In this document: piece after piece, positions 6,469 through 48,359 of the stretch
Layout: the number at the start of each line of letters is the position of its first letter
Position numbering within the stretch: the first letter of the stretch is position 1
Source: Pirellulales bacterium
GTDB lineage: Bacteria > Planctomycetota > Planctomycetia > Pirellulales > Pirellulaceae
DNA: 52,220 bases
Direction of reading: 5' to 3'
Assembly: GCA_022451045.1 (NCBI GenBank)
Contig: JAKUOW010000011.1
Span: 1 to 52,220 of the forward strand
Notes under the pieces: model-generated
Told to the model about the DNA's origin: nothing
Database searches by the model: none
Seen by the model: only the letters and a program-made list of their open reading frames with translations
Position numbers and translations under genes: made by a program

Positions 6469-7485
6469 ATGACTAACCAACTATCACTTTCCCGTAGACA
6501 GCTTCTCGTTTCATCAGCTGCGTTTGGCGCCACGATGGCCGCCGGTCAGTGGAGTAGTGCGTTTTCAGTGGCAAAAGATTACCGCAGGCTAGACAGCGAT
6601 AAGTATTTTGGCCGCGGCACAATCCTCGCCACCATCGAAGATGACAAAGTCTTCACGGAAGGGCCAGCATTTGGGCCGGATGGCAATTTGTATTTCACAA
6701 ACGTGCCTGCTGAAAAAATCCTGAAATGGGATCCCAAAGCCAAAGAACTGTCGGTGTGGCGAGAACAATCTAACAAGGCGAATGGTTTGTATTTTGCGCC
6801 AAACGGTGACTTGCTAGCATGTGAAGGTGGAGCAGGACGCGTAACCCGGACGGATATGGAATCCGGTGAGATTACAGTAGTTGCCAGCGAGTTTAATGGG
6901 TTCCCGTTTGCTGCTCCTAATGACTTGTGCATGGATGACAAAGGGCGAATCTTTTTTACATCACGTCCGGGGGTTGAAGATCCAACCGAGGGCAATGTGA
7001 ATGCCGTATATCGAATTGATCCGGATGGTAGTGTGACACAGGTACTGGCATGGCCGGATATTCATATGCCGAATGGTATTGTGACGTCACCCGATGACAA
7101 AAAGCTTTATCTGATTGAAGCGCATCCCGATGCGGATTTCCACCGGGATATCCGAGTGTATGACATTGCGGCTGACGGGGCATTAGTGAATGAGAAGGTG
7201 CACGTTGACTTCTACCCTGGCCGTAGCGGTGATGGAATGTGCATTGATGCTCAAGGTAATCTTTATGTTGCGGCGGGTCTACATGCGACCCGAGAGACCA
7301 GTGAAACGCTTGATACCCGACCTGGAATCCATGTGATTTCACCACGCGGCAAACTCGTGGCTTATGCCGAGACTCCGGAAGACACGATTACCAACTGCAC
7401 ATTTGGCGGCCCGGACAATCGTACTCTCTTTGTCACCTGCGGCACCAAACTCGTCAGCTTTCGCACCAAAATCCCCGGAAAATAA
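6469..7485 (+). CDS. SMP-30/gluconolactonase/LRE family protein, Tat signal
   Basis: SRRQLLVSSAAFGAT Tat-like signal; FTEGPAFGPDGNLYFTNVPAEKILKWDP, ANGLYFAPNGDLLACEGG. Confidence 0.88.
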   Translation: MTNQLSLSRRQLLVSSAAFGATMAAGQWSSAFSVAKDYRRLDSDKYFGRGTILATIEDDKVFTEGPAFGPDGNLYFTNVPAEKILKWDPKAKELSVWREQSNKANGLYFAPNGDLLACEGGAGRVTRTDMESGEITVVASEFNGFPFAAPNDLCMDDKGRIFFTSRPGVEDPTEGNVNAVYRIDPDGSVTQVLAWPDIHMPNGIVTSPDDKKLYLIEAHPDADFHRDIRVYDIAADGALVNEKVHVDFYPGRSGDGMCIDAQGNLYVAAGLHATRETSETLDTRPGIHVISPRGKLVAYAETPEDTITNCTFGGPDNRTLFVTCGTKLVSFRTKIPGK

Positions 7486-7595
7486 TAGACAGTCTATGTT
7501 TGTCCGAGTTAAACATGGACACCCACTTTCTATTCGCTCCGGATTTTTTGATGTTCGGGCCAATCGGCATGAATCAGCAAGAATCTATGCCTGTC
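7485..7595 (+). repeat. Dispersed intergenic repeat, copy A
   Basis: ATAGACAGTCTATGTTTG then CATGGACACCCACTTT...GATGTTCGGGCCAATCGGCATGA...ATCTATGCCTGTC; matches the reverse complement of 9141-9223 over about 80 bp. Confidence 0.85.
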
Positions 7596-7621
7596 TCAGA
7601 TTCTTTTCAGATTCCTTGGAT

Positions 7622-8947
7622 TTAGACCTTGGGCAGCTGATATGGTCCTCGGTACTGCTTGTCGAGCAGCTCATTTGCCGGTTCGCAGTCGATAAACCGC
7701 TCTGTTTTAGGATCGAATTCCACCTGTCCTTGAGTGCGATAGGCGATTTCTCCTAAATGCACTAAGGCACAGGAATAATGCGCTGTTTGCGGGTTTGCTT
7801 TGGTTCCTGTGCGGTTTCTTACAGCATTTTGGAATTCGTGCATATGCTCAGCGTAACCACGTTCTCCTCGGATTTCCTGCCCTTCTGTTGGCCCTGGTTT
7901 GTTCTTTGGTCCTAGAAAAACGCTAAATGCGCCACGCCTTGAGAAAATCATGTATCCCTCGGTACCGTAAAAGACGTTACCGTTATCGAAGCCATGCAGG
8001 CCATAGGCAGTAAAAGGGTAATTTTCGTAGATTACAAGGCGACCATCCTCGTATTCATATGTGACAACCATGTTATCTGGGTAGTCACTAGCATGGCCAT
8101 GAAGCAGCATCCTGCTTCCACGAGCTGTTATTTTTGATGGCACACTTGTGACACCAAGTCCCCAGCAAGCCATATCGATGTCATGGATGCCATCATCACC
8201 AATCTCGCCATTGCCGTAATCTTGAAATAACCTCCATGTAGCGTGAAATCGGTATTTATTGAAAGCATGCTCCGGCGCGGGACCCAACCATCGATCGTAA
8301 TCTACTGTGGTCGGTGCCGTGCTATCTGGAACCGGTTTAACAACCTGTCTGGTTTCAGCAGTCCAAGCTCTTGCAATAAGCACATCGCCGATTATGCCTT
8401 CGCGGAGTAGCTTTTCTGCTTTTAGCGTTACAGGGCTGTTTCGCATTTGGCTGCCTTGTTGGACGACGCGTCCATACTTCTTAGCAGCCTCGATGATTAC
8501 CGGACCTTCGTTATATACATGCGAAATTGGCTTTTCGATGTAACAGTCTTTGCCAGCCTGCATCGCTGCAATTGCAATCGGAGCGTGCCAATGGTGTGGA
8601 GTGGCAATGATGACGGCATCTACGTTCTTGTCAGCTATGACATCTTCGTATTTTGTAGTGCGTTTTGGTGCCGCAGACTGAAAGTCCTTGGTGACAAATT
8701 GTGCCATGCGTTCGATTTGAGCTGTATCAACATCGCATAGCCAGGAAATAGACACGTTATCTTTGCGACCCACGATACCTTTGACATGGTGTGTCATGAT
8801 TCCACCACACCCAATGATCCCAATTGAAAGCTCGCTTGTGCTTTCTTCAGCTTGAGTGTGCACGGCACCTAGGGTAGTCACAGCAGCTGTGATGGCCGTT
8901 GTTGAACCAGCTTGTTTCACAAAATCACGTCGTGTTTGACTTGTCAT
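7622..8947 (-). CDS. Gfo/Idh/MocA family oxidoreductase, Tat signal
   Basis: TRRDFVKQAGSTTA signal; SIGIIGCGGIM Rossmann start; VDAVIIATPHHWHAPIAIAAMQAGKDCYIEKPISH. Confidence 0.93.
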   Translation of the reverse strand: MTSQTRRDFVKQAGSTTAITAAVTTLGAVHTQAEESTSELSIGIIGCGGIMTHHVKGIVGRKDNVSISWLCDVDTAQIERMAQFVTKDFQSAAPKRTTKYEDVIADKNVDAVIIATPHHWHAPIAIAAMQAGKDCYIEKPISHVYNEGPVIIEAAKKYGRVVQQGSQMRNSPVTLKAEKLLREGIIGDVLIARAWTAETRQVVKPVPDSTAPTTVDYDRWLGPAPEHAFNKYRFHATWRLFQDYGNGEIGDDGIHDIDMACWGLGVTSVPSKITARGSRMLLHGHASDYPDNMVVTYEYEDGRLVIYENYPFTAYGLHGFDNGNVFYGTEGYMIFSRRGAFSVFLGPKNKPGPTEGQEIRGERGYAEHMHEFQNAVRNRTGTKANPQTAHYSCALVHLGEIAYRTQGQVEFDPKTERFIDCEPANELLDKQYRGPYQLPKV

Positions 8948-9084
8948 GGAGTGTCACCTGAATTTGAATCCTTTGAGTCGATTTCCCGCATTGTAATGAG
9001 GTTCAACAGTCAATGCCTAATAGAATCCGACCAGAATTCAAGACAGGCAAAAATCCGCACACGCAAACTACACTGTGCCACTCG

Positions 9085-9256
9085 TAAACATAGACTGCCG
9101 ATGAATTTAAGGAGGTGGATTTAAGCCGCGAAAGATGCAGGACAGGCATAGATTTTTTCTGAGTCATGCCGATTGCCCCGAACATCGAAAAAAGCTCGGG
9201 CAAATAAAAAGTGGGTGTCCATGATTGAGCTCACAAAAGGCCGGTGTCTATGTTTA
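9085..9256 (-). repeat. Dispersed intergenic repeat, copy B (172 bp, imperfect terminal inverted repeats)
   Basis: Left end TAAACATAGACTGCCG, right end CCGGTGTCTATGTTTA (reverse complement TAAACATAGACACCGG); core 9141-9223 is inverted relative to copy A. Confidence 0.85.
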
Positions 9257-39752: not shown

Positions 39753-41144
39753 TTACTTTATCCCGAGAGCCTTCTTAAGCGCTGCAGGTAGTTGATCGGT
39801 TGCTTTTTCTGATACCCAGGACCAGCTGTGCCCATTGAAACCGTCTGCATAATCACGTTTCATTGGAATGTAACCAGGCCAGGACTCGCCGAATCCGATA
39901 CTGAATACAAAGTTATCAGGTAATAACTGTTGTGCCATTAATTGATAGCCAACGAACGTCTCGCCCGGGAAGAGGACAACCTTTCCGTGGCCAAAATCAA
40001 TACACGCCATATCGATAGGGTGCTTTTGCTCTACACGATTGAGGCTGCTGAGTGACATCGCTGCCGCGATGCGTTTGATTATGTCGAGGTCTTTGTTTTC
40101 GAGTTGCTCCGTGAGGATGGCACGCTTGTATTCCGGCTTCTGGTTGTATTCGAGATGAAACGGAATACTCCGGAAATCAATTTGTGTAAGTGGCTGGGGC
40201 TTGATGGAGTCAAACGACTTTTTCATGCCGGTATAGAGGCGATCCGCGAGTATCTGGCGGTTATCTGGTGAGCCGTCGTTGTATTTTCCCGCAGTGACAT
40301 CGCCACTGCACCCGGATAGATAAATGTGTTCTACGTCACGCTGTTCTCGCCGAATTCGTTCACGGGCGATGCCAACAAAGTCCCATGTTACGCCGCCACG
40401 TCCGTAATAGCTCATGGGATGGGTAGCATAACTGTGAATCGCGAGAACGGGTTTGTTGCCATTGTAAAAAGCTATGGTCCGAACAAATGGATCGATATCG
40501 CCATCCGGCGCGGCGGCGTAGTGTTTATTTCCACCACCGGAGCTTCCGCGGTTATGAGTGATACGGCCGTCGGCTTCCCGGACGCGTCGGCTCGAAGCGA
40601 CCTTCTCTACTTTGGCCATGCCGTAGCCAATATGGCTAATGGGCTGGGAGTGATCCATTGAATCTCTGACGGCCTGTGACACGCGATCGATTGTATCGTC
40701 AAGAAAGGCGGTATTGTGAAGTTCATTTGACAGTCCGACACTGTCCAGGAGTAGTTGTGCTTCTCGGTCAACGACGGGGGCGTCGTGTTGGTGAAGAGCT
40801 GTGACGATCACCCGTTGTCGCTCAGTGCCCGCGGCTTTCGCAAATGCATCACGAAGCGCATCGTATGCCCCGTTACGAATTTCGCACCAATCAAAAGCTG
40901 CTAGGACGATTGGTTTGTCACTGCTGTGTAATACGAATCCATAGACTCTTAACGGATCAACAATCTTCTGCGACTTTGTGCGCAGCAACCCCATACATCG
41001 ATGCCCAAGTGGAATCGTCACATCAGCTGAAAACGTACTGAGTCTATATTGCTCCGCGTGCATCGTCCGAGCAAACGCCCCAATCATGGACACCCACATT
41101 ATGGCGATGCAATAAAGACTTGTTTTATAGGGTTTTGAGTTCAC
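39753..41144 (-). CDS. Neutral/alkaline non-lysosomal ceramidase-like secreted hydrolase
   Basis: TFSADVTIPLGHRCMG, VIVTALHQHDAPVVD, IHSYATHPMSYYG, IYLSGCSGDVTAGKYND. GTG at 41144 after AGGAG preferred over TTG 41162. Confidence 0.75.
   Translation of the reverse strand: MNSKPYKTSLYCIAIMWVSMIGAFARTMHAEQYRLSTFSADVTIPLGHRCMGLLRTKSQKIVDPLRVYGFVLHSSDKPIVLAAFDWCEIRNGAYDALRDAFAKAAGTERQRVIVTALHQHDAPVVDREAQLLLDSVGLSNELHNTAFLDDTIDRVSQAVRDSMDHSQPISHIGYGMAKVEKVASSRRVREADGRITHNRGSSGGGNKHYAAAPDGDIDPFVRTIAFYNGNKPVLAIHSYATHPMSYYGRGGVTWDFVGIARERIRREQRDVEHIYLSGCSGDVTAGKYNDGSPDNRQILADRLYTGMKKSFDSIKPQPLTQIDFRSIPFHLEYNQKPEYKRAILTEQLENKDLDIIKRIAAAMSLSSLNRVEQKHPIDMACIDFGHGKVVLFPGETFVGYQLMAQQLLPDNFVFSIGFGESWPGYIPMKRDYADGFNGHSWSWVSEKATDQLPAALKKALGIK
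41041..41097 (+). repeat. Partial repeat-family copy inside the 5' coding end of the ceramidase-like gene
   Basis: 17-nt exact match CAATCATGGACACCCAC to the reverse complement of copy B, plus AGTCTAT and GTCCGAG.AAAC shared with copy A. Confidence 0.6.
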
Positions 41145-41161
41145 AACTGCTCCTGAAAACA

Positions 41162-41253
41162 ATAGGCAGTCTATATTCTTAATACTGAAAATTTACGGAC
41201 AAAATTCATGGACAGCCTATGATTTTTTGACACAAACAAAGTGGGCGTCCATG
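41162..41253 (+). repeat. Dispersed intergenic repeat, copy C (internally deleted)
   Basis: ATAGGCAGTCTAT (compare ATAGACAGTCTAT in A) ... CATGGACAGCCTATGATTTTTTG ... AAAGTGGGCGTCCATGA; lacks the central GATGTTCGGGGCAATCGGCATGA of A and B. Confidence 0.75.
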
Positions 41254-41260
41254 ACTGGCA

Positions 41261-48126: not shown

Positions 48127-48293
48127 AGGAATTGGTTTCTCAAGCGGCGGGATTACTTGAAACGGTGGGAGAATCTTAGTTGATTACCTAGTTCATTATA
48201 ACAGGGATAGGCTGTCTGTTTCATAGCAGCTTTGCGTAGTAACAATCTAAGAAAGCTACGATTTACCTAGAATTGAAGCCTCAGATAGCCGGA

Positions 48294-48359
48294 TAAACAT
48301 AGATTGCCCATGATTAAGTCATGCTAAGCCTGGCTAAACGTAGACTGTCTATGATTCAA
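48294..48359 (+). repeat. Dispersed repeat, copy D: two direct units of about 25 bp, period 41
   Basis: TAAACATAGATTGCCCATGATTAAG (48294-48318) and TAAACGTAGACTGTCTATGATTCAA (48335-48359); compare copy B left end TAAACATAGACTGCCGATGAATTTAAG. Confidence 0.7.

Follow-up and report, generated by a model that had tools for sequence, protein, structure and literature searches.

Clusters around a Gfo/Idh/MocA gene belong to an apparently genus-specific family of modular intergenic repeats, probably a static BOX/REP-like relic, in a marine planctomycete

The window analysed here, a stretch of 52,220 nucleotides from a Pirellulales bacterium (contig JAKUOW010000011.1; draft MAG, 91% complete, here G000), contains four clusters of short repeats: A at 7479-7602, B at 9035-9255, and two more at 41082-41256 and 48244-48358. 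Clusters A and B lie on either side of an oxidoreductase gene. The clusters contain modules of about 21-24 bp that fall into three classes, P1 (consensus AATCATGGACACCCACTTTTT), P2 (AAATTCATAGACAGTCTATGTTTA, a palindrome) and P3 (AATCTAAGACAGGCATAATTT); P1 and P3 are palindromic only in part, or weakly. G001 denotes the sister species, and both genomes are incomplete MAGs. The features of the window are:

7479-7502, plus strand: P2 module of cluster A, 3 mismatches to the consensus, aligned in G001 at L180:9625; overlaps the stop of the SGL gene at 6469-7485
7511-7531, plus strand: P1 module of cluster A, 2 mismatches, from the genome-wide P1 search
7532-7581, no strand: body of cluster A, common to B only, within the 86% inverted match to 9141-9226
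7582-7602, minus strand: P3 module of cluster A, 3 mismatches
7622-8947, minus strand: Gfo/Idh/MocA oxidoreductase gene between clusters A and B (Pfam PF01408 and PF19051), bracketed by them and not assigned to any element
9035-9055, plus strand: decayed P3 module of cluster B, 5 mismatches in G000 and 3 in the orthologue L180:11181
9085-9108, minus strand: P2 module of cluster B, 2 mismatches, previously read as a left terminal inverted repeat (TIR)
9109-9200, no strand: 92-bp body segment of cluster B, with an A-like core at 9141-9200 that includes a P3-like GACAGGCATAGATT at 9141; about 39 bp instead in G001
9206-9226, minus strand: P1 module of cluster B, exact consensus, 0 mismatches
9235-9255, minus strand: decayed terminal P1 module of cluster B, 5 mismatches, retained in G001, previously read as the right TIR
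41082-41102, plus strand: P1 module at the left end of the third cluster, from the P1 search and the motif scan
41156-41179, plus strand: decayed P2 module of the third cluster; the orthologue L181:8249 has 6 mismatches
41202-41225, plus strand: P2 module of the third cluster, from the motif scan
41236-41256, minus strand: P1 module at the right end of the third cluster, from the motif scan
48244-48264, plus strand: decayed P3 module of the fourth cluster, from the motif scan; a clean P3 in G001
48294-48317, minus strand: P2 module of the fourth cluster, from the motif scan
48335-48358, minus strand: P2 module of the fourth cluster, from the motif scan

An earlier note on this DNA had described an inverted similarity between 7514-7595 and 9141-9223, on either side of the oxidoreductase CDS. 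A BLAST search of the whole 4.59-Mb genome confirmed this, since 7511-7595 matches 9141-9226 in inverted orientation with 86% identity over 86 bp (E=1.7e-21). The repeat search of the window returned two pairs of inverted arms, 7544-7595/9141-9192 (52 nt, 90%) and 7511-7549/9188-9226 (39 nt, 82%), which merge into this single match. Note that a 36-codon ORF (MDTHFLF..., window 7514-7621) runs through cluster A from P1 to P3, probably by chance. A coding explanation of the cluster was rejected on reading the sequences, since neither the frames nor the stops are preserved at the other loci.

When the genome was searched with copy B, 27 places were obtained, mostly over only about 20-30 bp, and their alignment resolves into the three module classes, whose ends are sharp and whose flanking sequences are unrelated. 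The classes are in register: they have in common a left arm, AATCAT(R)GACA or AATCTAAGACA, around one dyad centre, and all three are versions of a single dyad centred on GAC-A-GTC, P2 being the symmetric one. Genome-wide, P1 has 26 matches at up to 3 mismatches against 1 for the reversed-pattern control, while P2 has 27 against 0 and P3 has 9 against 0. In the approximately 394 kb around the clusters, 74 motif matches were found and none for the reversed motifs; with a looser cut-off these G000 stretches hold 81 motif copies in about 22 clusters of roughly 75-310 bp, the counts resting on the genome-wide pattern searches plus these stretches. The matches are concentrated between genes, with 61 in intergenic gaps and 4 inside called genes in a sample of which about 8% is intergenic. 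The earlier note had proposed counting copies in the host genome, and had named the absence of further copies as the outcome that would speak against it. Many further relatives are present, and A and B, which it had taken for a matched pair, are ordinary members of this set of about 22 clusters.

The clusters follow a clear polarity. Wherever P1 is terminal, its AATCATGG end faces outward, at 12/12 left and 10/10 right cluster ends in G000 (22/22) and at 9/9 left and 10/10 right ends in G001. P1 occupies only half of all cluster ends in G000, and P2 and P3 are found inside clusters or at the other ends. Some P1 copies are accompanied by 40-45 bp of related sequence; A and B are the only pair with a whole body in common, and the other linkers are mostly unrelated. 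One cluster of G000 (C24, L161:9945-10175) is an array of five P1-like copies (+ + + - -) spaced by 52, 53, 52 and 53 bp; its linkers, of 31-32 bp, are mostly different, and its folding is strong (z about -8 to -9). A CRISPR-like reading of this array was rejected, since the orientation flips mid-array and two of the linkers have an inverted 12-mer in common.

Comparison with the sister species, which is about 91-97% identical in aligned stretches, revealed that, outside C24, nearly all the sampled clusters are orthologously placed in both genomes. The differences fall inside the clusters, as internal modules gained or lost and as partial deletions. At C351 one species has 118 bp exactly between direct P3 copies and the other a single P3; C361 carries one more P3 unit, of 52 bp, in one of the two species, while C57b differs by additional P2 copies and C128 by additional P1 sequence. 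Among the sampled clusters, nearly all of them occupied in both species, neither a clean empty site nor a target-site duplication was found. At C346 (L175:12052-12960, G000, compared with L194), G000 carries about 0.9 kb that G001 lacks; this segment ends near a P1 module and takes in most of a 332-aa ORF to which Pfam gives no match. At C29 (L195:11784-11830, G001), a back-to-back P2 pair forms a long palindrome; since G000 retains a remnant of this pair, the difference is probably a deletion and not an empty site.

Locus B itself differs between the species: where G000 has the 92 bp with the A-like body, G001 has about 39 bp of a different sequence between the same flanking modules, and the A and B clusters of G001 have only short mutual matches, at the modules. 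This bears on the imperfect TIRs that had been proposed for copy B, TAAACATAGACTGCCG (9085) and TAAACATAGACACCGG (reverse complement of about 9240-9255). Both are present, but they are modules of different classes, a P2 and a decayed P1, and they are not the termini of an element, because G001 retains both while the sequence between them differs. Nor is the TA, which the earlier note had read as possibly flanking the termini, a target-site duplication, since it belongs to the P2 consensus (...CTATGTTTA) and recurs at many loci. The bracketed gene was suggested to have been mobilised or inverted; in G001, the same gene is found in unchanged orientation and with both neighbours. No synteny around it was found in other genera, where the homologue is located elsewhere, so the polarity of the gene order cannot be set. 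There is no evidence that the repeat family moved or flipped this gene.

Outside the two species, neither P2 nor P3 occurs above chance level in 97 other genomes of the family and order, and the same is true of P1 in 391 genomes of the phylum. Moreover, an exact scan for P2 across 84,980 species returned only the sister MAG PAXU01. The literature yielded no planctomycete record of the P1/P2/P3 repeats, which constitute a previously unrecorded and apparently genus-specific family in a marine planctomycete genus. The REP transposase domain PF01797 (Y1_Tnp), present in 20/30 genomes searched in the family and order, often in several copies, has 0 matches in G000 and G001, both incomplete MAGs; no P-motifs were found near the Y1 transposases of the other family and order genomes. 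In the draft G000 (91% complete), the flanking genes examined by Pfam include no transposase, being ordinary metabolic genes or without Pfam match. P1 as the end of an insertion sequence elsewhere in the phylum was rejected, its matches being at chance level and those at contig ends in one genome having no recognisable transposase beside them.

Our results suggest, with a probability of about two in three, that A and B are members of a genus-specific, modular family of non-coding intergenic repeats, the remnant of a non-autonomous BOX/REP-like repeat that is now static. The copy number, the intergenic placement, the terminal polarity, the sites shared with the sister species and the gain and loss of whole modules are all observed. 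The family would have spread in the ancestor of the genus as a non-autonomous repeat, recognised through the common arm AATCATRGACA by an enzyme that may now be lost or was not assembled. Spread by transposition is what we infer here, as the searches turned up neither a mobilising enzyme nor a clean empty site. Since the split of the two species the repeats would have been largely static, apart from shifts in module number as direct copies recombine or slip. Where A and B match outside the modules, one body may occupy the two loci, having been copied or converted with a change of orientation, and the A-like body at B would have been either lost in the sister species or gained in G000. Two observations count against the mobile-repeat reading: the modules sit in non-homologous bodies, which is unusual for elements moving as a unit, and the model does not predict a 10.5-bp spacing period.

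This period makes operator arrays the main rival, a possible but clearly less probable one, in which P1, P2 and P3 are 21-bp dyad sites of one lineage-specific DNA-binding protein (a regulator or a nucleoid protein), helically phased, with A and B possibly bridged by a loop. That the three modules are versions of one dyad fits this proposal, as do the five P1-like copies of C24, kept 52-53 bp apart despite different linkers. The centre-to-centre spacings of the modules cluster at 22-23, 28-35, 51-53 and 63-67 bp, with a best period of 10.5 bp (R=0.42, p=8e-5, G000), but the signal is weak (p=0.037) among pairs that differ in class or orientation. Similarly, the modules diverge less than the linkers between G000 and G001 (6.9% vs 13.3%); however, the difference narrows to 5.3% vs 7.1% (56/1057 and 54/758) when clusters with badly gapped linkers are set aside and 14 remain, so constraint on the modules is not demonstrated. 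Motifs are distributed over co-directional (35), divergent (23) and convergent (3) gaps in proportion to their length (18.0, 10.3 and 1.9 kb), with no promoter bias once intergenic length is counted, and cluster A lies between convergent gene ends. Moreover, close genera do not have the motif, although a regulon would be expected to survive in them. Seven PSD1-family genes, of the roughly 100 PSD1/DUF1553 genes in the 4.6-Mb draft of G000, have a cluster on their 5' side, a link that is suggestive but confounded by long upstream gaps. Slightly more doubtful still is the wider claim of a nucleoprotein system particular to the genus, in place of a mobile relic, made up of helically phased variant operators in about 22 intergenic regions close to genes of sugar catabolism and of the PSD1 family.

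A structured RNA or leader, in which P1 and the hairpin that follows it, closed by P2 or P3, would form a folded transcript affecting neighbouring mRNAs, is improbable. Many clusters do fold more stably than their dinucleotide shuffles, with a mean z of -2.6 where six other gaps average -0.7, and the bodies of several P1 copies form hairpins, different from one another, in which GGACA pairs with P3 or P2 to close them. However, the two strands fold alike, which cruciform DNA would account for just as well, and modules are found facing either way, both inside a single cluster and with respect to the genes. An Rfam scan gave no match, and a tRNA/tmRNA search found none.

Very unlikely, and already largely refuted, is a classical MITE pair or two-ended element that mobilised or inverted the Gfo/Idh/MocA gene: the copies are inverted with one gene between them and the best Gfo/Idh homologue in other genera is not between SGL and PSD1 genes, but the gene, its orientation, its neighbours and the clusters are the same in the sister species, locus B of G001 is without the A-like body, the supposed TIRs and TA belong to modules that recur at about 20 other loci, and no transposase is among the flanking genes tested. 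What stands of the MITE-like or structured element of the earlier note is a dispersed, non-coding, multi-copy and intergenic sequence, many clusters of which are folded beyond shuffles; the name MITE is not supported, as most loci have only the 21-24 bp modules in common, in mostly unrelated bodies, and no autonomous partner was found.

Bacterial gene expression and genome plasticity are influenced by short intergenic repeats, which are best known from Proteobacteria and streptococci. The family described here combines its modules by clear rules (P1 facing outward at the ends, P2 and P3 inside, one dyad common to all) and is restricted to one planctomycete genus, in which no REP transposase was detected. 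It therefore offers a small test case, either of how such repeats can spread and last when the genome has no enzyme for them, or of "repeats" that are really arrays of binding sites.

Compared with known systems, the repeats resemble MITEs, including the Correia type, in being small, non-coding and foldable, with inverted outward ends. They differ in that no target-site duplication was seen, no full-length body is conserved and no insertion sequence with matching ends was found: outward P1 ends occur in part of the clusters, the bodies are mostly unrelated outside the A/B pair, and the flanking genes examined in the draft MAG (91% complete) revealed no autonomous transposon with such ends.

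REP, BIME and REPIN sequences, which go with a RAYT transposase, are imperfect palindromes of 20-60 bp, in several classes, clustered, intergenic, lineage-restricted and often in inverted pairs (PMC3116915, PMC3733652). The short palindromic units, extragenic and clustered, are found here too (the P2 palindrome; 61 vs 4 matches; 22 clusters). The differences are that no Y1/RAYT gene was found in either member of the genus, copies in the tens and not the hundreds, and the weakly palindromic P1 and P3. The GTAG or CGTC tag, as defined in PMC3733652, is absent from the P1, P2 and P3 consensus on either strand, and with neither enzyme nor tag the family fails as a RAYT-REP system.

BOX elements of Streptococcus pneumoniae (boxA-boxBn-boxC) are composite non-coding intergenic repeats with terminal modules and a variable internal number (PMC3049150). 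As in BOX, many sites are common to strains, length varies by gain and loss of modules, and the elements are folded. In contrast with BOX, the modules here are only 21-24 bp, both ends can bear the same outward P1, and the three modules have one common dyad and non-homologous linkers, in a different phylum. With every terminal P1 of G000 outward, and with numbers of P2 and P3 that vary within and between the species, the family fits the structural description of a BOX-like modular repeat, and we liken it to pneumococcal BOX by description and not by membership.
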